DNA of 52,924 nucleotides from Phycisphaerae bacterium (GTDB lineage Bacteria; Planctomycetota; Phycisphaerae; UBA1845; PWPN01), in contig JAUCQB010000009.1 of NCBI GenBank assembly GCA_030372985.1, positions 1 through 52,924 on the forward strand, written 5' to 3'. Positions 21,001-48,499 of this stretch are shown one piece after another. A program made the translations under genes and the position numbers. The notes under the pieces were generated by a model. It was not told where the DNA came from and made no database searches. It saw nothing but the letters and a program-made list of their open reading frames with translations. Each line of letters starts with the position of its first letter. Position 1 is the first letter of the stretch.

Positions 21001-21481
21001 TAGCGCCTTCGATCTGTCCAACACCGACACCCTGCCGGACAACCCGAACCGGTTCGCCACCTTGAGCGTGACCGGAGTGACGCCAGGGACGGTCAAGGTC
21101 TTTCTTTGTGTGGGAGGCCTGGGGATAACCGACAACGGTGATGGTGCCGTCGTATGGCTCGGATTCAACAACGGGCAGACCACGCCGGAGAGTACGAACA
21201 TCGGCGGCAGCGTATTCGGCTTGTGCTCTTCGGTTCCCGAGGCCACCATCCACGTGTCGGCCCCCGTGCCGGGCGATTTCGACTTCGACACCGACGTGGA
21301 CCAGGATGATTTCGGTCACCTTCAGGAATGCCTTAACGGTTCAACCATCCCGCAGACCGAGCCCACCTGCGCCGATGCTTCGCTGAACGGCGACGAGTTC
21401 GTCGATGGGGCGGATGTTGCGATCTTCCTGCAATGCCTGTCGGGTGCCGGCACATCCGGCGATCCGGATTGTGCTGATTGA
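18035..21481 (+). CDS. Secreted GH13 alpha-amylase with dockerin-like C-terminus
   Basis: 1148 residues, with signal MACAACLAHVAEAAGQG. The barrel carries the four conserved GH13 regions: I LILNHNGF (about residue 113), II GFRIDACKH with the nucleophile Asp (about 258), III SFGES with the acid/base Glu (about 299), and IV FVENHD with the stabilising Asp (about 380). The next ~650 residues are accessory: Ig-like segments, one EF-hand pair (DMNNDNRTNNRDILAF, DMNGSGLVDQDDVPLF), then a cohesin-like beta region. A terminal EF-hand pair (FDTDVDQDDFGHLQEC, LNGDEFVDGADVAIFLQC) closes the protein. It acts on extracellular starch or glycogen, upstream in action of the GH15 enzyme. The GH57 gene follows 35 bases downstream, probably co-transcribed. 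Confidence 0.88.
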   Translation: MARRWTKVSMACAACLAHVAEAAGQGVPVTLQWFETSWQTMEDRTADAFIAGYGQVWTPPPGKAEGGTSNVGYAVFDRFDLGSPSSPTRYGTRASFEAVVAEQDKAAIGTFIDLILNHNGFSSKDTSGFEASGDYPGFVVSGGPEGYGDFHAPGASCDSSPTTCWVSNLADIGQEFNNVYIRHPVSLGEPQNIPAGTLYDQPDPNNLQFYSDNDLPANGIGIHPFNTSDPMAGDPTAENATGFLLRHCRWLTEIVGVDGFRIDACKHTPDWFWRDYFDRHVWLRGKPDLSGTPTTPLSFGESILGNPEIAAFVCKGTTGNCNTSGGVTGNRDALDFQLYYAIRNMLDQNGFGNWSSVVNASFDGYFDGDANDGDFGVTFVENHDTGQPLPSPGLLAYAYLLTRAGLPIVYYQAGEFGSVSFPRSSRSDPLGADDDYLTTLVDVHNEYARGNYVERWIDGDVLLYERNNACLVGLNDRRDNGYDQRTVQTSFAAGTRLKELTGNATDTAVDPNGDIWDVVTVDGSSQATIRVPRNRNVNGDWHGRGYAVYGPVNPDGDLFVTPVAGTIPADSPSEPIGTRRLTPIDVITAEQFEVRLETVDADAADPSEDDLAMLRMDAGLDINGNGYIDSLDPAFVGYGYEHFLTESVSLESGGVDIGGVQKGLYRQIIDATSLSEGRHYLSVIAFRSRPAGTPPIFETWRKVILIDRMAPTMTLADPPPGTPITSSMYQIAVRSPDRTATRVHLFLDQQPGTDVVALAEAGQGLATQTDRDTFARTFSGMNEGHHRLDVVAYEPTRSEPGVTTITGILVQINGFDGLGDMNNDNRTNNRDILAFVQMAGAGNQFNPAGDMNGSGLVDQDDVPLFADRMYGAGLPQGPGHEATASGGSQMSTGQSFFWLQEEAAFSRLGSITNPDVQVVAGRSVPLHLWFNTATAPLGFDGISFDVRLRSDDGGAAQASISIDEPAGRWYGATAGTIRTDTGGQGIDDASAFDLSNTDTLPDNPNRFATLSVTGVTPGTVKVFLCVGGLGITDNGDGAVVWLGFNNGQTTPESTNIGGSVFGLCSSVPEATIHVSAPVPGDFDFDTDVDQDDFGHLQECLNGSTIPQTEPTCADASLNGDEFVDGADVAIFLQCLSGAGTSGDPDCAD

Positions 21482-21515
21482 ATCGTGGTGGCAAGTTGAG
21501 ATGCCGAGGCAAGTC

Positions 21516-24500
21516 ATGTCGCATGTTGACGTGCGAAACCTGCTGGTGGGCCTGGTGCTGTTGACGGGAAGCGCTGTTTCTCAAGCCGAGAACCTGCATT
21601 TCAGCTACCTGTGGCACTTGGAGCAGCCGATCTACTGGCCTGACCAGCAGGCATCCGGCCAGGACGGCTACGAGCGTGCATGGGAATCCATTCTCCGCAC
21701 GGATGCCGGAGCACCTCATCCGGCCAACAACCTCCGCGAGATCTTCGGCAAGGACGACCGCGTGGCGGTGTATCAATACCGGGCTCGCGACGCGATCAAT
21801 GCGATTCGCGGCTACTCAGAGGCCGGTGCGCAAATCAGTTACTCGGGCGGGCTCGTCGAGAACATCTTCAGCCTTGGCACGGCCGGCCAACTGGGCTATT
21901 CGTCGACCTGGTACTCCTGGCTGCGCGAGGCTCGTGGATGGAGTACCCAAGGACAAAGCAAAAGCCGGTGCGATATTGTCGTCTTCCCCTTCCATCATCC
22001 GCTTCTGCCCCTGTGCGACGAAAGCGCCGTCCGCAAGGAGATACAGCTCTACAAAGCGATCTATGCCGACGCGTGGGGAGCGTCTCCGTCACCATCGAAG
22101 GGGCTCTTCCCGCCCGAAATGGCTTTCAGCGAGCGATTGATTCAGATCCTGGCGGAGGAGGGCGTCGAATGGGTGATGGTCAGCGGCGAGCACCTGTCGC
22201 GGGCGTGCCTGGACTTCCCCGTCATCTACGGCACCGGCGGCATCAACTGTGATCCACCCAACGCGGCCGACAAGGTCAACCCAGCGCAGAACAGCTATTA
22301 CCGCGTGACGATCTCGCGCGGCTGCTCGCCCGCGGAAGCGTATCCTTTCGCGTTCACGCCGCACCGTGCCCAGTACGTGGACCCCGACACGGGCTCGGTT
22401 TCCAGCATGATCGTGGTCCCGTGTGCCCAGGCCATTGGCTGGGAGGACGGATACGCTCCTCTCGGGCTGAGTCACTTCAATACGCTCCAGACGCTGAACA
22501 ATTCCTCGCGACCGATGCTGGTGATGCTGACCCACGACGGTGACAACGCCTGGGGCGGCGGATACAGCTATTACATGGAAGCGGTGCCGAATTTCGTGGC
22601 CGGCGCCCAATCGTCCGGCTACCAGGCAACCGTGATCGAGGAGTACCTGGCCGACCATCCCGTGCCCGCGGATGACGTCGTACACGTCGAAGACGGCGCC
22701 TGGGTTAACGCGGACGGCGATTTCGGCTCGCCGGTGATGCTCAACTGGAACTGGCCTCTGGTGAACGCCTCAGGCCAGATCGACATCCCCGGCGGCTGGG
22801 CGGAAGACGAGCGCAACTGGGCGGTAATCACCGCCGCGCAGAACCGCGTGGATACGGCCGAGCAGATCGCGGGCGGCGTGGACATTCATCGGATTCTGTA
22901 TCCGGATGCGAGCACCACTTCCGCCGAGCGGGCATGGCACTACTTCCTGGGAGCCCTCAACTCCGGCTACATGTACTATGGCACATCGCTGGACATGGAG
23001 GTCAAGCCGACGATTGCCTGCAACGAGGCCGTGCAGCACGCCGACGCAGCGATCGGCGATGGTTCCGCAGATACGACGCCGCCGACCATCTGGATTCCGC
23101 AGCGCCATCCGTGGAACCCCGGTTCAGTCAATTTCGGACCGCAGTACGGATACCAACAATACCAGTCCAACGGCGATTTCTGGGTCTGGACGTTCGTCCA
23201 TGATGTGTCCGGCGTGACTTCGGTCACGCTCAAGTACCGTATTGACGCCGACGGCAGCAACCCGCTGTCCAGCACGCAAAACGAGACCTATGCCGGTGGT
23301 TCCGAGGTCGGCGCCTGGCAGAATCTGCCGATGATTTACCGAGCATTCCCGGGCGGCAACTTGCTCAACGATCCGAACATCGATTTCTTCGAGATGCCGG
23401 CCTACATCGCGGATCAGTATTACGTGCAGGTTACCGGCTTGCGCAGCGTGCTGATCGACTACTACATTGAAGCTGTTGATGGCAAGGGGCACACACGCAA
23501 GAGCCCCATCCAGCACGTCTACATCGGTGACGGCAGCGGAAGTGGCAGCGAGGACGTGGTCGAGCTGAATCCTTCGGCGCCGGCGGCCGGCCAGAATGTC
23601 ACCGTCAGCTATGACCCGACCGGCCGGCCGTTGGCTGGAGCCGCTCAGGTCTACCTGCACTACGGCTTCAACAACTGGAACCCGGTCATATCACCCGACG
23701 CGGCGATGACCTGGAACGCAACCGACGGCGTCTGGCAATGCACGGTGATGGTGCAGTCGACGGCCACACAGTTTGATCTGGTCTTCAACAACGGCAGCGG
23801 TACCTGGGACAACAACAATGGACAGGATTGGCACTTCGCCGTGACCGGCGGTACACCGGGCGATCAATGGGATATGGACGGCGTGCTGGATGCCGATGCC
23901 CGGCTGGTGGCTGTGAACAACAGCCTCCATCTGTACGCCGGCATGAAAGACGATGTCCTCTATGTCGCGACTGAAGACGCCGGTGAGGGCAACGATCATT
24001 TCATCCTTCTGGCCCAGCAGCCGGGTGCGATGCGAGCCGCGATGTGGGCCAAGAGCGGCCAGGTGGCCGACTGGGATGCTTTCCTGGCCGATGAGAACAA
24101 CAACGACTATGAAGGTTGGTTCGACGCCCTTGGCGGCACGCAAGCCATGACCGGCCCCAACGGCGGCGTCCTGGAAGGAACCATCCATCTGCGCGAGCAG
24201 TACGGCGCATTGCCGACGATCATTCACTTGGCAATGGCGCCCTACTCAACGCCCGACGGTGGAGCTCTGATCCACCCATCTCAGGTGCCCGCGTCGGTCA
24301 ACAGCGACGGGAACATCGATCCGCTTGAGTTCGTGGAGGTTCGCCTTTGCAGTATCGGCGGGCCAACCGTGCCGGGGGACTTCGATGAGGACTGCGATGT
24401 CGACGCGGCGGATTTCTCCTTGTTCGTCGCCTGCCTGACGGGCCCCGACGCAGGCGAGCTATCGCCACAGTGCGCGGATCAAGATCTTGATTCCGACGGC

Positions 24501-24557
24501 GATGTTGACCAGTCCGATTTCGGCATCTTCCAGAAATGCCTGACCGGCCCTTTGTGA
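21516..24557 (+). CDS. Secreted GH57 family glycosidase with CBM25-like module and dockerin-like tail
   Basis: 1013 residues. A Sec signal (LLVGLVLLTGSAVSQAEN) is followed by YLWHLEQPIYW, the first GH57 motif. The nucleophile region is GLFPPEMAFS (Glu about residue 200) and the acid/base region is MLTHDGDNAWGG (Asp about 340). GH57 enzymes act on alpha-glucans (amylase, amylopullulanase, 4-alpha-glucanotransferase). At about 680-780 VYLHYGFNNWNP with FDLVFNNGSGTWDNN matches CBM25/CBM53 starch-binding modules. The C-terminus carries two EF-hands (DEDCDVDAADFSLF, DSDGDVDQSDFGIF). The start at 21516 has GAGG six bases upstream; ATG 21501 is an alternative. A secreted GH57 in a bacterium is less common than an intracellular one. 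Confidence 0.85.
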   Translation: MSHVDVRNLLVGLVLLTGSAVSQAENLHFSYLWHLEQPIYWPDQQASGQDGYERAWESILRTDAGAPHPANNLREIFGKDDRVAVYQYRARDAINAIRGYSEAGAQISYSGGLVENIFSLGTAGQLGYSSTWYSWLREARGWSTQGQSKSRCDIVVFPFHHPLLPLCDESAVRKEIQLYKAIYADAWGASPSPSKGLFPPEMAFSERLIQILAEEGVEWVMVSGEHLSRACLDFPVIYGTGGINCDPPNAADKVNPAQNSYYRVTISRGCSPAEAYPFAFTPHRAQYVDPDTGSVSSMIVVPCAQAIGWEDGYAPLGLSHFNTLQTLNNSSRPMLVMLTHDGDNAWGGGYSYYMEAVPNFVAGAQSSGYQATVIEEYLADHPVPADDVVHVEDGAWVNADGDFGSPVMLNWNWPLVNASGQIDIPGGWAEDERNWAVITAAQNRVDTAEQIAGGVDIHRILYPDASTTSAERAWHYFLGALNSGYMYYGTSLDMEVKPTIACNEAVQHADAAIGDGSADTTPPTIWIPQRHPWNPGSVNFGPQYGYQQYQSNGDFWVWTFVHDVSGVTSVTLKYRIDADGSNPLSSTQNETYAGGSEVGAWQNLPMIYRAFPGGNLLNDPNIDFFEMPAYIADQYYVQVTGLRSVLIDYYIEAVDGKGHTRKSPIQHVYIGDGSGSGSEDVVELNPSAPAAGQNVTVSYDPTGRPLAGAAQVYLHYGFNNWNPVISPDAAMTWNATDGVWQCTVMVQSTATQFDLVFNNGSGTWDNNNGQDWHFAVTGGTPGDQWDMDGVLDADARLVAVNNSLHLYAGMKDDVLYVATEDAGEGNDHFILLAQQPGAMRAAMWAKSGQVADWDAFLADENNNDYEGWFDALGGTQAMTGPNGGVLEGTIHLREQYGALPTIIHLAMAPYSTPDGGALIHPSQVPASVNSDGNIDPLEFVEVRLCSIGGPTVPGDFDEDCDVDAADFSLFVACLTGPDAGELSPQCADQDLDSDGDVDQSDFGIFQKCLTGPL

Positions 24558-25453: not shown

Positions 25454-27841
25454 TCAACCTTTGCGTCTGATTCGTGTGCCTTTCGGCGAGTCCTCGACCG
25501 CATAACCACTGGCGGCCAGCCGGTCGCGGATCTTGTCGGCGGCGGCGAAGTCGCCTTGCTTGCGGGCCAGGTCACGCTGACGAACGAGGTCTTCAATCTC
25601 CGGGGAGACCCGTGCGGGCGTCTCAGCCGTTGGCAGAATGCCGAGGGCTGCATCCACTGCCTGCAAAGCGGCCAGGACCTCTTTGGCGTCCTCCTGGAAG
25701 AGCCGCCCCTGGGTCATCAGGTAGTTGGTCTGACGGACCAGGCGAAAGAGTGCGGCGAGTGCGACGGATACGTTCACGTCATCAAACAGCGCTTCACGAA
25801 GCGACTCTTTCATCGCCAGTATCGAAGGCCCAAGCTCCGGAACGCGCGGGCCCGACGCAACCACCCCGGCCAGCTTGGCGACGCACTCGTCGAGCCTGCG
25901 GAGCGAAGCGGCGGCGGCATCGAGTCCTTCGTCCGTCAGTTCAAGAGGCTGTCGATAGTGCGCCTGAAGCAGAAAGAAGCGGATTTCGCGGGACGAGTAG
26001 CCCTTCTCGACCAGATCGCCAAGAGTGACGCAATTATCCTGCCCATAGGCCATCTTCTTGCCCTTGGCCAGCACCAGCTCCGAGTGCAGCCAGAAGCGGG
26101 CGGGCGACTCGCCGGTGAGTGCCCGGCTTTCGGCCAGCTCATTCTCATTGTGCGGGAACACAAGATCGGTTGCGGCCGTGTGGATGTCGAAGCGGTCGCC
26201 CAGTTTGGCCCGGGCCATGGCCGAGCACTGTACGTGCCAGCTCGGCCGGACGTTGCCCCAGTCGGTCTTGTGGCTCAGGCCTTTACGCATTTCCGCGAGT
26301 GTGCATCTCCGCATCAGCGTAAAGTCGCGGGGATCGTTCTTGTCGTACCGCTCGAGGTCGACGGTCGCCCCGATCCGGATCTTGCCGAGGTCTTTGCCCG
26401 ACAGCTCCCCGTAGGTCTCGACCCGGCTGATGTTGAAGTAGACCGAATGGTTCTTCTCGTAGGCGAAACCCCTCTCAACCAGCGACCGGGTCAGGTCGAC
26501 CATGTCGTCCACTGACTCGGACGCGCGAGAATAGGCGAACGCGGGCTTGATGCCCAGGGCACGCAGGTCCTCGTGGAACTCGGCCTCGTGCTGGGCGCAG
26601 AGTTCGGGCATGGGCCGACCGGTGCGTTCGGCTTCCTCGATGGTGTTGTCGTCGAAATCAGTGATCCCAACGACGTGCTCGACCTCGTAACCGGCGAACT
26701 CTAACGTGCGGCGGACAAGATCGGCCGCCAGCATTCGCCGCAGCACGCCGAGGTGCGGCCGGGCGTGAACCGTCGGACCGCAGGAATACATGGTGACCTT
26801 CATCCCGCCTGAGATCGGCTCGAAGGCCTCGTACTTGCCGGTCAGACTGTTGAAGAAGTGAACCTTCAGGGGCGCGACCTCCGGCTCGGCTACCTGGAAC
26901 AGCGTCGTCGACAGGTACCGCTCGCCGCCGTCCGGCAGGATGGCCACCACCACGCCGGCGTCAATGCTCGCCGCGATCTGGCATGCGACGTACATCGCCG
27001 CGCCCGAGCTCATGCCGACCAGAAGGCCTTCCTCCCGAGCCAGCCGGCGGGCCATCTCGTAGGCCGCGTCGTCCTCGATGTTCACCTTCTCGTCGATCGC
27101 CGGGCGATGATAAATGCCGGGGACGTAAGCTTCCTTGAGGTTCTTGAGTCCCTGGATGCGGTGCCCGAGATAGGGCTCGACGCCGATGACGCGAATCGCC
27201 GGGTTCAGCTCCTTCAATCGCTTGGAGCACCCGACCACCGTGCCGGTCGTGCCCATGCTCGCAACGAAGTGGGTGACCCGGCCTTGCGTCTGTGCCCAGA
27301 TCTCCGGAGCCGTCGTTTCGCAGTGCGCCAGTAGATTGGCGCGGTTGTTGTACTGGTCGGGCAAGAAGAATCGGTCGGGCTCCTCGGCGGCCAGCCCATA
27401 GGCTTTCTCGATGGCCCCATCGGTACCCTGGTCGGCCGGGGTCAAGAGGAACTCGGCCCCGAGGGCGGCCAGGATCTTTCGCCGCTCGACCGATACGCCC
27501 TCGCTCATGGCCAGCAGGATCGAATAGCCCTTGATGGCTGCCACCATGGCCAGCCCGATCCCCGTGTTCCCGGAGGTCGGCTCGAGAATCGTCTTGCCCC
27601 GCGTGAGCTGACCGCTTCGCTCGGCTTCTTCGATCATGTACAGGGCGATCCGGTCCTTGACCGAGCCCCCCGGGTTGACCCGCTCGAGCTTGGCGTAAAG
27701 TTCAACCTTCGGGTTGGGGTTCAGTCGGCGGATCGGTACCAGGGGCGTGTTGCCGATCAGTGAAAGCAGCCCCGGCCGTTCCGGCACATCGCGCTTGCCA
27801 GTGAACGCAGATTCCATCTTGCTGTCATTCTTCGCGGTCAT
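25454..27841 (-). CDS. Fusion of cysteine synthase and divergent cysteinyl-tRNA synthetase
   Basis: 795 residues. Residues ~22-330 are an O-acetylserine sulfhydrylase-type PLP enzyme: IGNTPLVPI, the PLP Lys in NPGGSVKDR (Lys62), the substrate loop PTSGNTG, and GTTGTVVG. Residues ~335-795 follow cysteinyl-tRNA synthetase end to end: start (YEAFEPISGG), zinc ligands Cys in SCGPTV, Cys in WHVQC, His and Glu in FPHNENE, and the C-terminal tail (KQGDFAAADKIRDRLAASG). The signature motifs are altered: HIGH is HLGV (about 360) and KMSKS is KMAYG (about 597). I know of no standard protein with this order. It could channel cysteine to a ligase, or the second half could act on another acceptor. The start at 27841 is chosen where CysK homology begins; the longer frame to 28207 is low-complexity and overlaps accA. 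Confidence 0.8.
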   Translation of the reverse strand: MTAKNDSKMESAFTGKRDVPERPGLLSLIGNTPLVPIRRLNPNPKVELYAKLERVNPGGSVKDRIALYMIEEAERSGQLTRGKTILEPTSGNTGIGLAMVAAIKGYSILLAMSEGVSVERRKILAALGAEFLLTPADQGTDGAIEKAYGLAAEEPDRFFLPDQYNNRANLLAHCETTAPEIWAQTQGRVTHFVASMGTTGTVVGCSKRLKELNPAIRVIGVEPYLGHRIQGLKNLKEAYVPGIYHRPAIDEKVNIEDDAAYEMARRLAREEGLLVGMSSGAAMYVACQIAASIDAGVVVAILPDGGERYLSTTLFQVAEPEVAPLKVHFFNSLTGKYEAFEPISGGMKVTMYSCGPTVHARPHLGVLRRMLAADLVRRTLEFAGYEVEHVVGITDFDDNTIEEAERTGRPMPELCAQHEAEFHEDLRALGIKPAFAYSRASESVDDMVDLTRSLVERGFAYEKNHSVYFNISRVETYGELSGKDLGKIRIGATVDLERYDKNDPRDFTLMRRCTLAEMRKGLSHKTDWGNVRPSWHVQCSAMARAKLGDRFDIHTAATDLVFPHNENELAESRALTGESPARFWLHSELVLAKGKKMAYGQDNCVTLGDLVEKGYSSREIRFFLLQAHYRQPLELTDEGLDAAAASLRRLDECVAKLAGVVASGPRVPELGPSILAMKESLREALFDDVNVSVALAALFRLVRQTNYLMTQGRLFQEDAKEVLAALQAVDAALGILPTAETPARVSPEIEDLVRQRDLARKQGDFAAADKIRDRLAASGYAVEDSPKGTRIRRKG

Positions 27842-27983: not shown

Positions 27984-29138
27984 TCAGCCGACCGCGTCGG
28001 CAACTTCGCTCTTGCGGCGGTCGGCGAGGCGGGATCGGCTGCCGGCATTCTGGCCGTTGCCGGACGAGCCGTTACCGTTTCCGTTGCCGGCCGCGGTGCG
28101 GCTGCGAGATCGCGGCAACGTTTTCGGCGCGTTGATGTTCTCGAAGAAACTGCCGATGCTTCGCCATCGTTCGTAGCGGCGTTTGAGCAGAGTATCCAGG
28201 CGAACACGTTTCAGTTCGCGGAGGGTCTCGCTCACGTGCTGCTCGAAGGTTGCGATCATGGCTGAGGGGTTGCGATGGCCGCCGCCGAGCGGCTCGGGCA
28301 GAATCTTGTCGATCAGGTCGAGTTTCTTGAGGTCCTGGGCGGTGAGTTTGAGGTGCCGGGCGGCCTCGGCCACCTGCTCGGTGCTCTTCCAGAGGATGGC
28401 CGCACAACCTTCAGGCGTGATCACCGAGTAGTAGGCGTGCTCGAACATCGCCAGCCGATCGGTCACGCCGATGCCCAATGCCCCGCCGCTGCCGCCTTCA
28501 CCGATGACCACCCCGACGATCGGCACGCGCAAACGGGACATCTCCATCAGATTCACGGCGATCGCCTGGGCGATTCCGCGTTCTTCGGCCTTGTCGCCGG
28601 GATAGGCCCCCTGGGTATCGATGACGGTCACGACCGGGAGCCTGAACTTCTCGGCCAGCTTCATTTTCAGAAGGGCCTTGCGGTACCCCTCCGGGTGCGG
28701 GCAGCCGAAGTTGCGTTCGATCTTCTCCTTGGTCTCGCGGCCCTTGTCGTGGCCGACGATCATGACCTTCTGACCGCCAATCCGGCCGAAGCCGGTGACG
28801 ATGGCCTTGTCGTTCCCGAAACAGCGGTCGCCGCTCAGTTCACAGAAGTCCTTGACACAGCCGTCGATATAATCACGCAGACCAGGCCGGCGGGGGTGGC
28901 GGGCAACCAGGACCGTCTCCCACGGGGTCAGCCGGGCGTAAGTCCGGCGCATCATGCTCTCGAGGGTGGTCCGCAGTTCTTTCAGTTCTACGGAAAGATC
29001 TCGCTGGGTGGTGTTCTGAACGCCCTCCAGTTCGGCGATTTCCCGCTCGATCCGCAACAGGGGCTTTTCGAACTCCAGCATGGCCCCTGGAGTGGAGAGC
29101 ATGTCACCGGCTGGACGTACTCCGGAGAGTGTGCTCAT
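27984..29138 (-). CDS. accA: Acetyl-CoA carboxylase carboxyltransferase, alpha subunit
   Basis: 384 residues, cytoplasmic, first committed step of fatty acid synthesis (transfer of carboxyl from biotin to acetyl-CoA, with AccD). Recognised by LEFEKPLLRIEREIAEL, then ELSGDRCFGNDKAIVTGFGR, GCPHPEGYRKALLKMKLAEK and VITPEGCAAILWK, all hallmark AccA segments. EGGSGGALGIGV carries the oxyanion-hole glycines. It is longer than the usual ~320 residues: the last ~50 are low-complexity Ser/Gly/Asn/Arg (NGNGNGSSGNGQNAG), likely a disordered tail. The start has AAGGA five bases upstream. It lies upstream of the cysteine fusion gene on the same strand, 142 bases away. Confidence 0.95.
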   Translation of the reverse strand: MSTLSGVRPAGDMLSTPGAMLEFEKPLLRIEREIAELEGVQNTTQRDLSVELKELRTTLESMMRRTYARLTPWETVLVARHPRRPGLRDYIDGCVKDFCELSGDRCFGNDKAIVTGFGRIGGQKVMIVGHDKGRETKEKIERNFGCPHPEGYRKALLKMKLAEKFRLPVVTVIDTQGAYPGDKAEERGIAQAIAVNLMEMSRLRVPIVGVVIGEGGSGGALGIGVTDRLAMFEHAYYSVITPEGCAAILWKSTEQVAEAARHLKLTAQDLKKLDLIDKILPEPLGGGHRNPSAMIATFEQHVSETLRELKRVRLDTLLKRRYERWRSIGSFFENINAPKTLPRSRSRTAAGNGNGNGSSGNGQNAGSRSRLADRRKSEVADAVG

Positions 29139-43268: not shown

Positions 43269-43444
43269 GTCCTCTGGAGCTAATCAATCAAATGGCGGGT
43301 GAGGTCGAGCGGGATGAAATGGAGCTTAAGCAACTGATTGTCTCGCTGATAAACGAAGGCAGAACGGAATTGGCTATTGCGGCTCTGGAGCTTTGGCGTT
43401 CGCAGGCTGCCGGCGAGGTCTTGAAGAAGTATGGCAACAACTAG
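43265..43444 (+). CDS. Small helical protein overlapping the recombinase start
   Basis: 59 residues after a strong GGAGG site: MSPLELINQMAGEVERDEME then LKQLIVSLINEGRTELAIAAL. Nearly all helical. It overlaps the previous ORF by four bases and the recombinase by 14, giving a coupled three-gene arrangement. Probably a small accessory or directionality-type protein; the role is inference from position alone. Confidence 0.55.
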   Translation: MSPLELINQMAGEVERDEMELKQLIVSLINEGRTELAIAALELWRSQAAGEVLKKYGNN

Positions 43445-45107
43445 GCCACAAGACATCTCGACTATCGTCGGACTTCTCCGAGTCTCTACGGAGGCTCAGG
43501 AGAAGGAAGGCTACTCTCTCGCTGCTCAACAAACGGCTTATGAGCGTGATTGCCGTACCTTCGGCTGGCGGTCGCTGGATACCTTCGAGGGCCAGGAAAC
43601 AGGTTCTGCCCTTTCCCAGCGCCAGATTATCCATGACCTGATCGCCTGCATCCGCAACCACCGGCCTGATGCCGTTTGGGTCATCGAGCAATCACGTCTG
43701 ACTCGGGGCGACGAACTCGACGTGGCTGTGCTTCTGCGCGAACTCCGAGAATCTGGCGCGAAGGTAGTCCTGGAGCGGGGCACGATCATCGATCCTACGG
43801 ACCTCGAAGGCGCTTTCATGTTTCGGCTGAAGGCGCTGATGGATCGTCGGGAGTGGGAGGTGATCGCGGCCCGCAATTGGCGCGGCAAGGATGAGAAGGC
43901 CAAGTTGGGGCTGCTCGTCAACGCCAGGCCAGCGTATGGCTACACGACAACGGGTGAGGGCAAGGGCAAAGGCAAGCGAGTGCCTGTGCCCACAGAAGCT
44001 GACGTGGTGCGCCAGATCTATGAGTGGAAGGCGGCAGGGGTCAGCATTCGACAGATCATCCGCCGACTCTTTGAGCAAGGCGTACCTGCTCCGACCCAAG
44101 CCGGAAGGACTTCGGGCAAGTTGCCACAGCGATTCAAGAACGGAATCCAGCTCTGGGCGGAAACAACGGTCAAGCGCATTCTCGATAATCCCCTCTACCT
44201 GGGCGTTAGCTTCCACCGTTGTTGGGTCACGCGCGGCAAGAGTCTTGTGTTCGACCGCACGAACCCGAAGGCTGTTTGGATCGAAAACGCGCACGAAGCA
44301 ATCATCAGCCAGGAGTTGTGGGACGCCGCGCACCGGCAACTGGATGCCCAGCATTACCGTCGCAGCCTTAATCAATACATGTTAACGGGCATCATGATCT
44401 GCCCGCATTGCGGATCGACCCTCAACGCGACCTCATCAGGCGGTAACCGTGGACCTCGCTACGCTTATTACTTCTGCGCGTCCAAACGTCAGAAACCCGA
44501 TGAGTGGGGCCGGCGGCAACGGACAGGCACAGCATGTCCCAGTGGGTGGTGGCGCGCGGACAGGACTGATCGCATGGTGTGGGAAGCCTTCATTAAATTG
44601 ATCAGCAGCCCGGACATGGTCGAACAATTGCTGTCGTCAGTAGACGCGGAAAAGAAAAGAGAACGATTACGGGCGCTCATCCGTGACCTAACAACCGAGG
44701 CTGAGCAAATCGAGACTATGAAGGCAAGGGCGCGCGAAAAGCTGCTCGCGGAGATCTTAACCGACGGCGAGTACCTCAAGGAGCGGGAGCGGCTCCAAAC
44801 TCAACTGGAGGGGACCGCAAAACGACTTGCGACAGCCAAGGTTGAGCTGAAGGTATGTAGCAAGGAAGCAGGGATGCAGGTCATACAGAACCTGGCCATG
44901 TTGAAGCTCGGGGAGAAGAAACTGACGCAGGAACAGCGATCCAGGTTGTTCCATGCTTTGGTAAAGAGAGTTGTTCCCAGGGATGCTGAGCTGACCGAGG
45001 TTGAGATCGATTTGTACGTCACGCCCGAGTCTGGTGTGCTGCAGACACCAGCTGGGTCTCTCTCGATCGCGACCTTGGCAGTAACGGTATCGTTGGCAGG
45101 GGTATAG
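43431..45107 (+). CDS. Large serine recombinase (integrase)
   Basis: 558 residues. The N-terminal resolvase-like catalytic domain begins GLLRVSTEAQEKEGYSLAAQ, with Ser19 as nucleophile, and includes GQETGSALSQR and IEQSRLTRGDELD with conserved arginines. The recombinase DNA-binding domain follows (NARPAYGY, then WAETTVKRILDNPLYLG). Next come a zinc ribbon with MICPHCGSTL and a later Cys pair (YYFC, TACPSG), and a coiled coil at ~400-480. That is the full plan of phage-type large serine integrases. These need only short attP and attB sites and no supercoiling. It lies next to the comM junction, so it is the natural agent of that insertion. Confidence 0.93.
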   Translation: MATTRPQDISTIVGLLRVSTEAQEKEGYSLAAQQTAYERDCRTFGWRSLDTFEGQETGSALSQRQIIHDLIACIRNHRPDAVWVIEQSRLTRGDELDVAVLLRELRESGAKVVLERGTIIDPTDLEGAFMFRLKALMDRREWEVIAARNWRGKDEKAKLGLLVNARPAYGYTTTGEGKGKGKRVPVPTEADVVRQIYEWKAAGVSIRQIIRRLFEQGVPAPTQAGRTSGKLPQRFKNGIQLWAETTVKRILDNPLYLGVSFHRCWVTRGKSLVFDRTNPKAVWIENAHEAIISQELWDAAHRQLDAQHYRRSLNQYMLTGIMICPHCGSTLNATSSGGNRGPRYAYYFCASKRQKPDEWGRRQRTGTACPSGWWRADRTDRMVWEAFIKLISSPDMVEQLLSSVDAEKKRERLRALIRDLTTEAEQIETMKARAREKLLAEILTDGEYLKERERLQTQLEGTAKRLATAKVELKVCSKEAGMQVIQNLAMLKLGEKKLTQEQRSRLFHALVKRVVPRDAELTEVEIDLYVTPESGVLQTPAGSLSIATLAVTVSLAGV

Positions 45108-45257
45108 AGCGACGGGAAAAGCAGGCTACCTGCCCAATTATTGGTTGCGTTGACCAGGAATTGAGTTGGAAGCAAGTACCTGCGATAGCCCAAACGCGGC
45201 GTAGCGATGGGCAACAGCGGGTGGTGATCGGTCTGTTGATTAATAAGGAGAAATAAA

Positions 45258-45641
45258 TTGAGTAAGAAAACAGACAAAAAACGATTGAACGTGTTGGAAG
45301 TGGTGCGTATTGACGCGGTGATACCTAGTAGTATTGGAAAGCCTTTTGACTACCACACACATGGTCTGGATGCTTTTGATCATCCCGAGTTCCAGGTGTA
45401 TGCTCCCAAGTACTGTGCGAGCATTGTCGCCAGTGTACTCTGGAGCCATGTTGACGCCGTAGTCAATGACGGCGAGCGATTCACCCCGGAGACCGTCACA
45501 GACAGTCAGGGCACGATCTTTGGTTATCTGGAGGTGCCGGGGCACTCGGATGGTGATCCTTCCCGGTTGCTTATCGTAGATCGTCCCGATATGTGCGTGT
45601 GCCAATATTGCCAAGGTAAAGGAGGGAACTGTAATGAGTGA
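45258..45641 (+). CDS. DUF4262-like protein, first cargo gene
   Basis: 127 residues from a TTG start, supported by AAGGAG seven bases upstream. The core PFDYHTHGLDAFDHPEFQVYAP and DAVVNDGERFTPETV follows the DUF4262 pattern (P-F-x-Y-x-x-G-L, H-P-E-L, G-x-R-F). Function of that family is unknown. A C-terminal CVCQYCQGKGGNCNE adds a small Cys cluster. The stop overlaps the ATPase start by eight bases. There is a 150-base gap to the recombinase, so the cargo may have its own promoter. Confidence 0.65.
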   Translation: MSKKTDKKRLNVLEVVRIDAVIPSSIGKPFDYHTHGLDAFDHPEFQVYAPKYCASIVASVLWSHVDAVVNDGERFTPETVTDSQGTIFGYLEVPGHSDGDPSRLLIVDRPDMCVCQYCQGKGGNCNE

Positions 45642-46905
45642 GATACAAACCATGACCGTTCTCGCCGATGCGGAAGCGCTTGCGGATGAAATCCAGAAGG
45701 ACCCCATCAATGCGCTGAGGCAACACATTATCGAAGTTGGCATGGCAGCCCAGCAGGATGCCTTTGTCATGGCAATTCTCTCGGAGATCAGTGCCGCTGC
45801 CGGGTGCCCCTTCTCGATCCTGTTAGCCGGTAATCCGGCTTCGGGAAAGAGCACCGTCGCAAGCACGACCTCGGCATTCGTGGGCGATGAGTTCGTCGTG
45901 TCTTCTGGCAGTCTCAACCGCATGACCGCGGCAGCGGCCTGCCGCATGGCAGCGAGCCTGACCAATCACTGTATGGTCTGCGACGAGAGAGCGAGCAACT
46001 CTGAGTTTGATTCTCTATGGCGCCAGGCTCTGAGCGGCCAGAAGGCGTCGCGGATCATTACTTCGAAAGGAGAGCCTATTGAACTGACCATCATCCCACC
46101 CATCTCGTCGGTGGAGGCGGTGCTGTCCGACAAAGAGATGTCTCAACAAGATCGCTCGCGGTACCTGCGCATCCGGATGTGCGAGGATGAGCAGTCTCTC
46201 CAGACGATTCGCAGTTCAGCCAGAGCGTCCTTCACTCTCGAAGGGCAACGACGGCGTAGTCGAATGAAGACTCTGGGCTTCGCATATCGCTATTTCTTAT
46301 CGTCTCTGCGAAGGGATCTTCTCGTGGACATACCCTTCGCGCATCTGCTGTCCGTTGATGGAGATTCGGCCGTCGCGGTGCGCACGGAACAACACCTGCT
46401 ACGAGCCATACAGGCCGTGGCTTGGCTGCGGCAAGCCAACCGGACAGTACATCATGATCCAGATCTGGGCCGCTACATCCTCGCAACACCTGAGGATTAC
46501 GAGGTAGTGCGAGGAATCCTGATTAGATCCGGCGAGGACGGCACGGAAGATCTCAGCGACAATGCCCTCTACCTCTTTCGCAGATGGAAATCGTCTGTCT
46601 TGGACAAAGGCAACCAGTCAACCAGCTGGTATCAGCTGAACCAACTAAGCAAGTCGCGTCTGAGCAGATGGCAGGTCTATCGATCCCTGACTGAGCTGAG
46701 GGACGTGGGGCTGGCCGAGGGTGTCAAGAGCACTTGGCGGCTCAGCGAACTGGGGCTATGCACAGACCGGCCCAGCGCATTCGCGTCGCTACCGCCAGCC
46801 TCCACTCTTGCAGACGGCGGCGCAACACTGCAAGTTCCGGCAGCTGACCAAGTTAACGCCAATCCAGAAGGCAAGTTGCAGACTTGCAAGGAGGACAACT
46901 CATGA
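45634..46905 (+). CDS. P-loop ATPase with C-terminal winged-helix-like region
   Basis: 423 residues. Walker A is LLAGNPASGKSTV (about residue 65). A Walker B-like acidic segment is NHCMVCDERASN (about 112). ISSVEAVLSDKEMSQQDRSRYLRIRM contains a likely sensor and arginine finger. This arrangement resembles the DUF3987/phage primase-linked helicase-like ATPases. The C-terminal ~100 residues (LSKSRLSRWQVYRSLTELRDVGLAEG) look like a winged helix. It overlaps the neighbours on both sides (8 and 4 bases). Probably acts on DNA with the clamp-loader-like partner. Confidence 0.7.
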   Translation: MSEIQTMTVLADAEALADEIQKDPINALRQHIIEVGMAAQQDAFVMAILSEISAAAGCPFSILLAGNPASGKSTVASTTSAFVGDEFVVSSGSLNRMTAAAACRMAASLTNHCMVCDERASNSEFDSLWRQALSGQKASRIITSKGEPIELTIIPPISSVEAVLSDKEMSQQDRSRYLRIRMCEDEQSLQTIRSSARASFTLEGQRRRSRMKTLGFAYRYFLSSLRRDLLVDIPFAHLLSVDGDSAVAVRTEQHLLRAIQAVAWLRQANRTVHHDPDLGRYILATPEDYEVVRGILIRSGEDGTEDLSDNALYLFRRWKSSVLDKGNQSTSWYQLNQLSKSRLSRWQVYRSLTELRDVGLAEGVKSTWRLSELGLCTDRPSAFASLPPASTLADGGATLQVPAADQVNANPEGKLQTCKEDNS

Positions 46906-47693
46906 CAAACTTAGCTGACAAATACCGGCCGAAGCAGTTTGCCGAATTGTGGCAGGGCCTTGACACCCCGGTGATTGAGGCCATTACTCTAGAGCTGTCG
47001 CAAGGCATCTTGAGCGGTCCCTTGCTGGTCAGGTCTCCTTACGGCGGCGGCAAGACCAGCCTGGTGCGGCTAATCGGCTTGAGGGCGGCCTGCCTGAAAA
47101 CTGATGACGGCTCGTGCGAGCCGTGCCTCGCCTGCAAACCATGCACATCCATCACTCGCGCATTGGCGAGTAGACCGCTGGTTATTAATGAGTATGGTTA
47201 CGGGGAGATCGACTGCACTCGTACTCCGGCTGGCGATATTCTTCGCCTGATCCAGGAAGAGAAGATGATCTCGAAACGTCTCTGGTCGCCAGGTGGCATG
47301 GAAAAGAAGGTGCTGGCCCTGGACGAGTTTGGACGGCTATCCATCTCCGATCAGAAGAAGTTTTTGAAGATCCTGGAGACTGGCGGAATACACCTGGTCC
47401 TTTGCGTTGCCGACGAGGACAAGATTGATGAGGCTGTTGCCGATCGATGCCTTGTACGCCACCTATCTCTGCCATCGACCGATCAATGCGTGTTCCATAT
47501 ACAGCGTATCGTCAAGTCGGAAGGCCGAACGATATCCGCCAATGCTGCCCGCCACTTGGCACAACGATGCGGCAATGTGCCGCGTGACACTCTGCTGACT
47601 CTTTCGGACGCGATGATCTTCGCGAAGGATAGCATAGACCTCACTGCCGCCGAGAAAGCTCTCACGATGAGATCAAAGGGCGTGGCTGCATGA
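46902..47693 (+). CDS. DnaX-like AAA+ clamp-loader protein
   Basis: 263 residues. The N-terminus, TNLADKYRPKQFAELWQG, copies the clamp-loader start (L-A-x-K-Y-R-P-x-x-F). Walker A is RSPYGGGKTSLVRL (about 44). Four cysteines follow (AACLKTD, CEPCLACKPC), as in the zinc module of DnaX. Walker B is VLALDEFGRLS (about 137) and the SRC-like motif is DEAVADRC. The C-terminal domain III of DnaX is missing, so it is a minimal subunit like phage or archaeal small loaders. GGAGG precedes ATG 46902; the start overlaps the ATPase stop and its stop overlaps the methyltransferase start, each by four bases. Confidence 0.8.
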   Translation: MTNLADKYRPKQFAELWQGLDTPVIEAITLELSQGILSGPLLVRSPYGGGKTSLVRLIGLRAACLKTDDGSCEPCLACKPCTSITRALASRPLVINEYGYGEIDCTRTPAGDILRLIQEEKMISKRLWSPGGMEKKVLALDEFGRLSISDQKKFLKILETGGIHLVLCVADEDKIDEAVADRCLVRHLSLPSTDQCVFHIQRIVKSEGRTISANAARHLAQRCGNVPRDTLLTLSDAMIFAKDSIDLTAAEKALTMRSKGVAA

Positions 47694-48499
47694 CAATAGC
47701 TATCGGCAACATGCTGCTGGATCACATCTACCACCAACCTTGCGGCTTGCTCGCCGAGATCCCTGACGACTCCATCGACGCTATCGTCTTATCACCGCCC
47801 TACAATTTGTCTTACAAGCCGCAACCCGCCAAGAAGCACAATATCAATGGATACGACACCTTCGATGACCATCTGCCTCAGGATCAATATGAAGCCGACC
47901 AGATTGAACTGCTCGATGCGTGCTGTCGGGTGCTCAAGCCGGGCGGATCAGTCTTTTACAACCACAAGGAGCGCCAGGCGAAGGGCGTGGCCATTTCACC
48001 ATTTCGGTGGGTGCTGAAATCCAAGTGCGAGTTGGTCCAAACGATCATCTGGAATCGTGGCTCCACGCACAACATCGATCCCGTCCGCCTTTATCCGATC
48101 AATGAGTTCATCTTTTGGTTGAGAAAGCCAGGGTGTCGTCCTCGATTCAATCGCGCCTGCGCCAAGTTGACGAACATCTGGGAGATTGGCTTCGAGGAGA
48201 CTCGTTCAATTGGCCATCCGGCTCCCTTTCCTGTCCTGATACCCCTGCGGTGCCTCAAGATGGCAGGCGTGCAAGCAGGCGATGTCGTGCTGGACCCCTA
48301 TATGGGCTCGGGTTCGACCGGTGTCGCGGCCGCCGAAATGGGTGCTCACTGGATCGGATATGAGATCTCTGCCGACTACATCAGACTGGCAAGAAACCGA
48401 ATTGCCGAAGCGAAACAGATGAGAGATATGTGGAAAGTGCCACCAGCGAAGCCCAAAATGACCGGTCAGGACATCTCTGTTGCCGGTACTGCGAGTTGA
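47690..48499 (+). CDS. DNA methyltransferase, beta class (N4-cytosine or N6-adenine)
   Basis: 269 residues. Catalytic motif IV VLSPPYNLSY (residues 33-42) comes before the AdoMet motif I VVLDPYMGSGSTGVAA (about 196), the order that defines the beta class. Serine in SPPY leans toward N4-cytosine but does not prove it. Between them KPGGSVFYNHKER and the target-recognition region are typical. No restriction endonuclease is next to it, so it is an orphan or cargo-protecting methylase. It is coupled to the clamp-loader gene by a four-base overlap. Confidence 0.9.
   Translation: MTIAIGNMLLDHIYHQPCGLLAEIPDDSIDAIVLSPPYNLSYKPQPAKKHNINGYDTFDDHLPQDQYEADQIELLDACCRVLKPGGSVFYNHKERQAKGVAISPFRWVLKSKCELVQTIIWNRGSTHNIDPVRLYPINEFIFWLRKPGCRPRFNRACAKLTNIWEIGFEETRSIGHPAPFPVLIPLRCLKMAGVQAGDVVLDPYMGSGSTGVAAAEMGAHWIGYEISADYIRLARNRIAEAKQMRDMWKVPPAKPKMTGQDISVAGTAS

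Follow-up and report, generated by a model that had tools for sequence, protein, structure and literature searches.

A cysteine synthase fused to a diverged cysteinyl-tRNA synthetase-like domain: a possible case of control by a synthetase-derived sensor

The survey of a 52,924-nucleotide stretch of DNA from a Phycisphaerae bacterium (contig JAUCQB010000009.1 of assembly GCA_030372985.1, hereafter the window) revealed a minus-strand gene (27841-25454, stop codon included) coding for a protein of 795 residues, in which a predicted cysteine synthase (CysM) is followed by a domain derived from cysteinyl-tRNA synthetase (CysRS). This protein belongs to a family whose CysRS-like members are paired with a cysteine synthase, keep the residues of the cysteine pocket and of anticodon recognition, have rewritten ATP motifs (HIGH and KMSKS), and, in most of the genomes that carry them, coexist with a separate, canonical cysS. 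With regard to function, we tentatively favour a cysteine synthase that may be controlled by its CysRS-derived domain through binding of cysteine and tRNACys, by analogy with the action of HisZ, a histidyl-tRNA synthetase (HisRS) paralogue, on HisG; we regard this as plausible rather than probable.

A first-pass annotation, made from the letters of the window alone, had proposed the fusion, and it is borne out by the reading frame and by Pfam and NCBIfam models. The Pfam domains, all on the minus strand, are PALP in the synthase half (residues 27-304, 26930..27763, 234.6 bits), the catalytic domain tRNA-synt_1e (residues 347-643, 25913..26803, 283.5 bits), DALR_2 (residues 682-736, 25634..25798, 27.6 bits) and the anticodon-binding domain CysS_C (residues 745-792, 25466..25609, 32.6 bits), the last being the C-terminal tRNA-binding tail that had been described as kept. 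The 120 relatives listed (the best 120 of 7996 scored proteins), which are 62-94% identical, all carry both PALP and tRNA-synt_1e, so that neither chance nor an assembly artefact accounts for the fusion. A longer frame starting from a GTG at 28207 also exists, but it would overlap accA (27984-29138). The protein passes the NCBIfam cut-off of TIGR01136 cysKM (366.8 vs 344.15 bits) and stays below the equivalog cut-offs of cysM (357.5 vs 394.2) and cysK (325.6 vs 350.95); its synthase half is a member of the CysK/CysM subfamily and a predicted cysteine synthase. K62, TSGNTG (89-94) and GTTGT (197-201), which we take to be the catalytic Lys, the substrate loop and the phosphate loop of the pyridoxal phosphate (PLP) fold, are invariant in 60 aligned members.

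In order to compare residues, which are given in E. coli CysRS numbering, two groups named here KMTY-type (n=121) and KMSRS-type (n=18: 12 fused, 6 adjacent gene pairs) were aligned with 30 canonical CysRS. The KMTY-type rows were taken from the best 120 of the 7996 scored proteins (P0002-P0121), which biases them towards close relatives; P0113, P0118 and P0119, too short, were left out, and the window and loci L033, L034 and L036 were added, some of the added loci being perhaps near-duplicates of P rows. L061 (PVSRR) and L124 (KMSRP) were counted among the KMSRS-type, and L125 as unfused, its CysRS frame being separate after an in-frame stop. Contig ends truncate L062/L097 (G569), which was excluded from the alignments, and L037 (G456), whose first residues are missing.

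The altered motifs reported by the first reading, HLGV for HIGH (residues 363-366, 26744..26755, minus strand) and KMAYG for KMSKS (residues 596-600, 26042..26056, minus strand), are indeed present in the window protein. The fourth HIGH position (H40) is H or N in 30/30 canonical rows and L, V, I or F in 139/139 family rows, while the second lysine of KMSKS (K269), found in 30/30 canonical rows, occurs in 0/139 of the family: its position is occupied by Tyr in 102 and never by Lys in the KMTY-type, and by Arg in 18/18 of the KMSRS-type. The ATP motifs have been altered in two ways. The KMTY-type loses H40, K269, S270 and G227 but retains H37, G226/G227 being mostly changed and G227 replaced by Ser or Ala in 121/121. 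The KMSRS-type loses H40, carries Arg at 269, keeps Gly at 227 in 16/18 rows, and has Thr or Asp instead of H37 in 8/18. As judged from the aligned residues, the altered motifs are a trait of the family and not of a single mutant, and ATP activation has probably been lost or deeply altered.

The zinc site, by contrast with these motifs, had been called intact, and so it proved: C354 (26780-26782), C539 (26225-26227), H564 (26150-26152) and E568 (26138-26140), spanning 26138..26782 on the minus strand, align with E. coli C28, C209, H234 and E238. The first three are present in all 139 family rows, and E238 in all but one (17/18 of the KMSRS-type). More generally, the equivalents of the cysteine-pocket residues C28, T31, T68, W205, C209, H224, D229, H234 and E238 are kept at 90-100% in both groups. 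In the anticodon domain, R756, R760, D769, R772 and D784 (25490..25576, minus strand) are the equivalents of R423, R427, D436, R439 and D451. Four of these (R423, D436, R439, D451) are found in 139/139 rows, R427 in 121/121 and 17/18, the exception being Lys, and position 432 is aromatic in 30/30 canonical and 139/139 family rows. According to the available part of PMC12684709, Arg427 and Asp436 make the contacts to G34 of tRNACys, on which Trp432 stacks, and Arg423 belongs to the hydration network. The C-terminal stretch is the fastest-evolving part of the protein (64% identity between the window and L033, vs 89% in the synthase half), with 7 of its 49 columns conserved at ≥99% in the KMTY-type, and six of these seven are canonical invariants (hypergeometric p 4e-5). 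Overall, 55 of the 76 canonical invariants are kept at ≥90% in the KMTY-type. The ratio of non-synonymous to synonymous substitution rates (dN/dS) in the CysRS catalytic half is 0.086 (window-L033), 0.096 (window-L034), 0.125 (L033-L034) and 0.200 (window-L036), values that are rough because the synonymous rate (dS) exceeds 1 in each pair. The CysRS half thus appears to have been remodelled and to be under selection, and the kept residues make it very likely that it can still bind cysteine and read the anticodon of tRNACys.

The first-pass annotation had asked whether the genome holds a second, canonical cysS. Such a gene is present at G000:C120:208814-210331, and it groups with the canonical cysS of three genomes of the same family (support 100/99); owing to this grouping, a contaminant origin, considered on account of the 6.44% contamination of the bin, is unlikely. 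As counted by PF01406, a separate canonical cysS occurs in 18 of the 23 genomes carrying a fusion or an adjacent pair, the window's own included. This figure is made up of 4/6 (G000, G001 and G453-G456, with G452 taken as G001 again), 9/10, and 5/7 new genomes.

With regard to distribution, fusions were found on named contigs of Phycisphaerae (L033), Planctomycetota (L034), Acidobacteria (L035), Myxococcales (L036) and Deltaproteobacteria (L037), a sixth locus (L038) matching the synthase half only. Among 61 genomes of relatives, the window's own counted in, two (G000 and G001) gave a full-length match. Phylum-wide surveys were run at strict E-value limits. That of the window's phylum, which the first-pass annotation had called for, found the fusion in 1 of 392 genomes, the window's own. 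The phylum of L036 yielded 11/377 genomes (5 adjacent pairs and 6 fusions, one of which is truncated at the end of its contig), that of L035 6/297, and that of L037 3/195, including in G1322 an adjacent pair parted by one in-frame stop. The family is thus patchy across at least three phyla, which suggests horizontal spread. When 73 CysRS domains were placed in a tree, a 100/100 branch split the 30 canonical from the 43 family rows; the adjacent pairs cluster beside the fusions, and either fusion or separation may have come first (support 89/69). All CysRS-like members read are fused to, or lie beside, a cysteine synthase; the queries were whole fusions, so that orphans could escape them. Two fused members, L061 (G685) and L060 (G565), are highly diverged with long branches, and L061, with DIGF for HIGH and PVSRR for KMSKS, has the most altered site seen. 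Canonical CysRS of L109, L110, L111 and L041, from four genomes in the phylum of L035, share 38-40% identity with the window's CysRS half, vs 30-35% for the remaining canonical CysRS in the comparison, which may point to where the family arose. L005 206-1117 (G016) encodes a cysteine synthase that shares 56% identity with the CysM half; the 2.6 kb of this locus that were covered contain no CysRS-like gene. Long N-terminal extensions on the canonical cysS of L079 and L108 were judged by eye to be shadow frames and not fusions.

Because the residues for cysteine and tRNA are kept and the ATP motifs changed, the CysRS half is likely to sense cysteine supply rather than to take part in ordinary protein synthesis, and a sensor is favoured by the canonical cysS present in most genomes together with the lasting tie to cysteine synthase. 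In the proposed mechanism, the CysRS-derived domain would no longer activate cysteine, its zinc site is predicted to bind cysteine, and its anticodon domain would bind tRNACys; the CysM half may then be under allosteric control by the CysRS half, so that cysteine synthesis would track the levels of cysteine and of tRNACys charging. A more specific form, which we hold to be rather unlikely, is a one-protein switch, whose domain would read the GCA anticodon plus either zinc-bound cysteine or an empty 3' end, uncharged tRNACys turning synthesis on. The first-pass annotation had suggested a paralogue transferring cysteine to another acceptor, as MshC does, or a regulatory protein; the regulatory role has become our leading reading, whereas MshC-like ligation is disfavoured.

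Several observations weigh against a sensor without adenylation, and a number of them fit its main rival, an active but rewired CysRS that would charge tRNACys with cysteine from its own CysM half and act as a second, synthesis-coupled CysRS. We consider this rival possible, though somewhat doubtful. The equivalent of H37 is kept in 121/121 KMTY-type rows, for which a pure sensor has no obvious need, and that of K266 in 121/121 and in 17/18 of the KMSRS-type; with the cysteine pocket and the anticodon residues, these would suit a working enzyme. The fusion also passes the NCBIfam cysS cut-off (369.2 vs 340). There are 33 new near-invariant columns, which could represent a rewired catalytic site; one of them, an Arg just after HIGH (Arg369 of the window protein), present in 121/121 KMTY-type and 18/18 KMSRS-type rows, could replace a lost phosphate contact, a role that is a guess. 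That normal adenylate formation is doubtful, as the first reading had it, is plausible, but the E. coli CysRS mutants K266A and K269A, in the KMSKS lysines, are reported in the available part of PMC5660078 to keep the potential for protein synthesis. Furthermore, the fusion is the only cysS seen in five of the 23 genomes, namely, G001 (84% complete), G453, G693, G1082 and G1090, each of which consists of many contigs, judging by contig numbers; when Ile/Leu/Val-type synthetases were counted as a completeness check on the genomes without a canonical cysS, G000 itself showed only two. Two further points tell against the sensor: W458, found in 30/30 canonical rows, is gone from all KMTY-type rows, and the predicted structure of the fusion (predicted template-modelling score 0.57, with residues 310-324 below 50 in predicted local distance difference test) gives no confident placing of the two halves, so that no allosteric route is visible in the model. 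Against the active enzyme stand the loss of H40 and of K269 (Arg in 18) in 139/139 rows, that of H37 in part of the KMSRS-type, the changes at G226/G227 in the KMTY-type, and the canonical cysS of 18 genomes.

An MshC-like ligase, which would adenylate cysteine and couple it to an acceptor, either a small molecule or a peptide, is improbable in our estimation. The fusion scores 199.2 against a cut-off of 485.1 with the MshC model, whose match (model positions 17-409 of 411) reaches only to residue 735 and does not extend over the C-terminal domain, although the anticodon residues in that domain are strictly conserved; it is this selective conservation that disfavours such a ligase. To our knowledge, MshC lacks the C-terminal anticodon-binding domain, which fits the end of the model at residue 735. 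No acceptor pathway was found among the shared neighbours. Structural alignment was of no help here, because several canonical chains also lack a modelled C-terminal domain: the MshC chains stop at residue 737 of the model, canonical ones such as 8qhp, 3tqo and 1li5 at 742, and only 1u0b_B and 3sp1_B reach residue 794.

The CysRS half might also be a PLP-dependent cysteine persulfide synthase, in keeping with its fusion to a sulfur enzyme and with a report, in the part of PMC5660078 available, that E. coli CysRS makes cysteine persulfide. We regard this as very improbable: of the four lysines reported to bind PLP, the window protein keeps one (K596) and has N399, E402 and Y599 in place of the others, and within the KMTY-type K73 is non-Lys in 120/121 rows and K269 in 121/121, K76 being a weak marker, with Lys in only 7/30 canonical rows. 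Lastly, a decaying remnant without function, to which the loss of key motif residues might point, was rejected as barely credible given dN/dS of about 0.09-0.20 in the catalytic half of four pairs, the new near-invariant columns and the canonical invariants kept.

The genes around the fusion provide few clues to its function. Upstream, 142 bp from its start, lies accA (acetyl-CoA carboxylase carboxyltransferase alpha; 27984..29138, minus strand), which was not found at L033, L034 or L036; beyond it, on the plus strand, come a prephenate dehydrogenase gene and then a PurL-like gene. Gene lists read by eye revealed no neighbour pathway or operon common to the whole family, and no tRNACys gene was found in the 18 loci scanned, the sole tRNA being a tRNA-Pro in L036. 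In 5 of 22 loci, which belong to a single clade, the fusion has the adenosyl-hopene transferase gene hpnH as a neighbour (L119 4707-5720, L120 6583-7578, L121 556-1596, L122 6826-7839 and L123 2930-3934), with a gene for an FmdB-type zinc ribbon next to it in four of these five genomes (4/22 loci). In other lineages, pssA is a neighbour in L058 and L096, and mntP-, citrate-synthase-, glucosidase-, sugar-kinase- and Tex-like genes, recognised by eye, surround the pairs of L091, L092 and partly L094. Such lineage-limited neighbours were taken as local synteny. In these same three genomes, the unfused cysM/CysRS-like pair is closely followed by a frame of 72-73 residues whose sequence is similar in all three (L091 10999-11217, L092 10585-10806, L094 10868-11089). 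A promoter scan gave 0 promoter-like sites, and the terminator-like sites (6 vs 2.4 in shuffles) carry no weight in our reading. Elsewhere in the window, 21405-24557 codes for a large GH57-type protein with starch-binding modules and, by eye, dockerin-like repeats at its end. The row of genes at 43431-48499 comprises a serine recombinase, an ATPase recognised by eye (a Walker-A-like stretch with no Pfam match), a clamp-loader-like protein that scores below its Pfam threshold, and an N6/N4 DNA methylase; it is probably a mobile element.

In public sources, the family proteins, where they are named at all, go by 'cysteine--tRNA ligase' or 'cysteinyl-tRNA synthetase', names that conceal a second CysRS which has diverged and is linked to cysteine synthesis. 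No CysM-CysRS fusion is described in the literature searched, which is weak evidence, most subscription journals being outside its scope; PMC9774590, in its available part, deals with other fusions. If the CysRS-derived domain acts as a sensor, how far its own tRNA is charged would govern a biosynthetic enzyme, and neither a riboswitch nor a T-box nor a transcription factor would be involved. Should the domain still be a synthetase, class I activation would proceed with a hydrophobic HIGH residue and without the second KMSKS lysine, and there would be a path from cysteine synthesis to tRNA.

Among known systems, canonical CysRS (TIGR00435; E. coli, PDB 1u0b and 1li7) resembles the fusion in fold over residues 326-794 and has in common with it the zinc ligands, the cysteine pocket and the anticodon residues, whereas the fusion family differs by its tie to cysteine synthase, its rewritten HIGH and KMSKS and its place on the other side of the 100/100 branch. 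CysM (cysteine synthase B, PDB 2bhs, and the O-phosphoserine-dependent CysM 3dki), unlike the fusion, has no CysRS domain. MshC (cysteine:GlcN-Ins ligase of mycothiol synthesis, PDB 3c8z) is a CysRS paralogue with a catalytic fold like that of the fusion, but its model ends before the anticodon domain, whereas the fusion keeps CysS_C. MshC keeps working adenylation motifs, and we know of no CysM partner for it. Another noncanonical CysRS is CysRS* of Desulfobacterales, which serves Cys at UGA codons and, as far as the available part of PMC9437257 goes, lacks the anticodon domain kept by the fusion and is coupled to SelC*/SelB*; no SelC*-like tRNA gene was found near the fusion loci scanned.

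The two closest analogies are of role only. HisZ, of class II HisRS origin, would be comparable as an aminoacyl-tRNA synthetase paralogue which, devoid of adenylation, steers the enzyme that makes the amino acid it is named for; with the fusion family, too, each member read is paired with the pathway enzyme, and each row aligned has lost H40 and K269, which is consistent with a HisZ-like role. In the accessible portion of PMC9437257, HisZ is described as related to HisRS by paralogy, as lacking adenylation activity and as the mediator of feedback on HisG, an enzyme of the histidine pathway. HisZ is a separate subunit with no sequence kinship, whereas the fusion family derives from class I CysRS, is mostly fused and keeps the anticodon residues. 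GCN2, in which a synthetase-like domain senses uncharged tRNA and controls the enzyme joined to it, serves as a working analogy; its HisRS-like domain binds uncharged tRNA, according to the part of PMC4335047 available. GCN2 is a eukaryotic, HisRS-related kinase without sequence kinship to the fusion, and a tRNACys-reading switch, if real, would be its bacterial, class I, one-protein counterpart controlling a metabolic enzyme.
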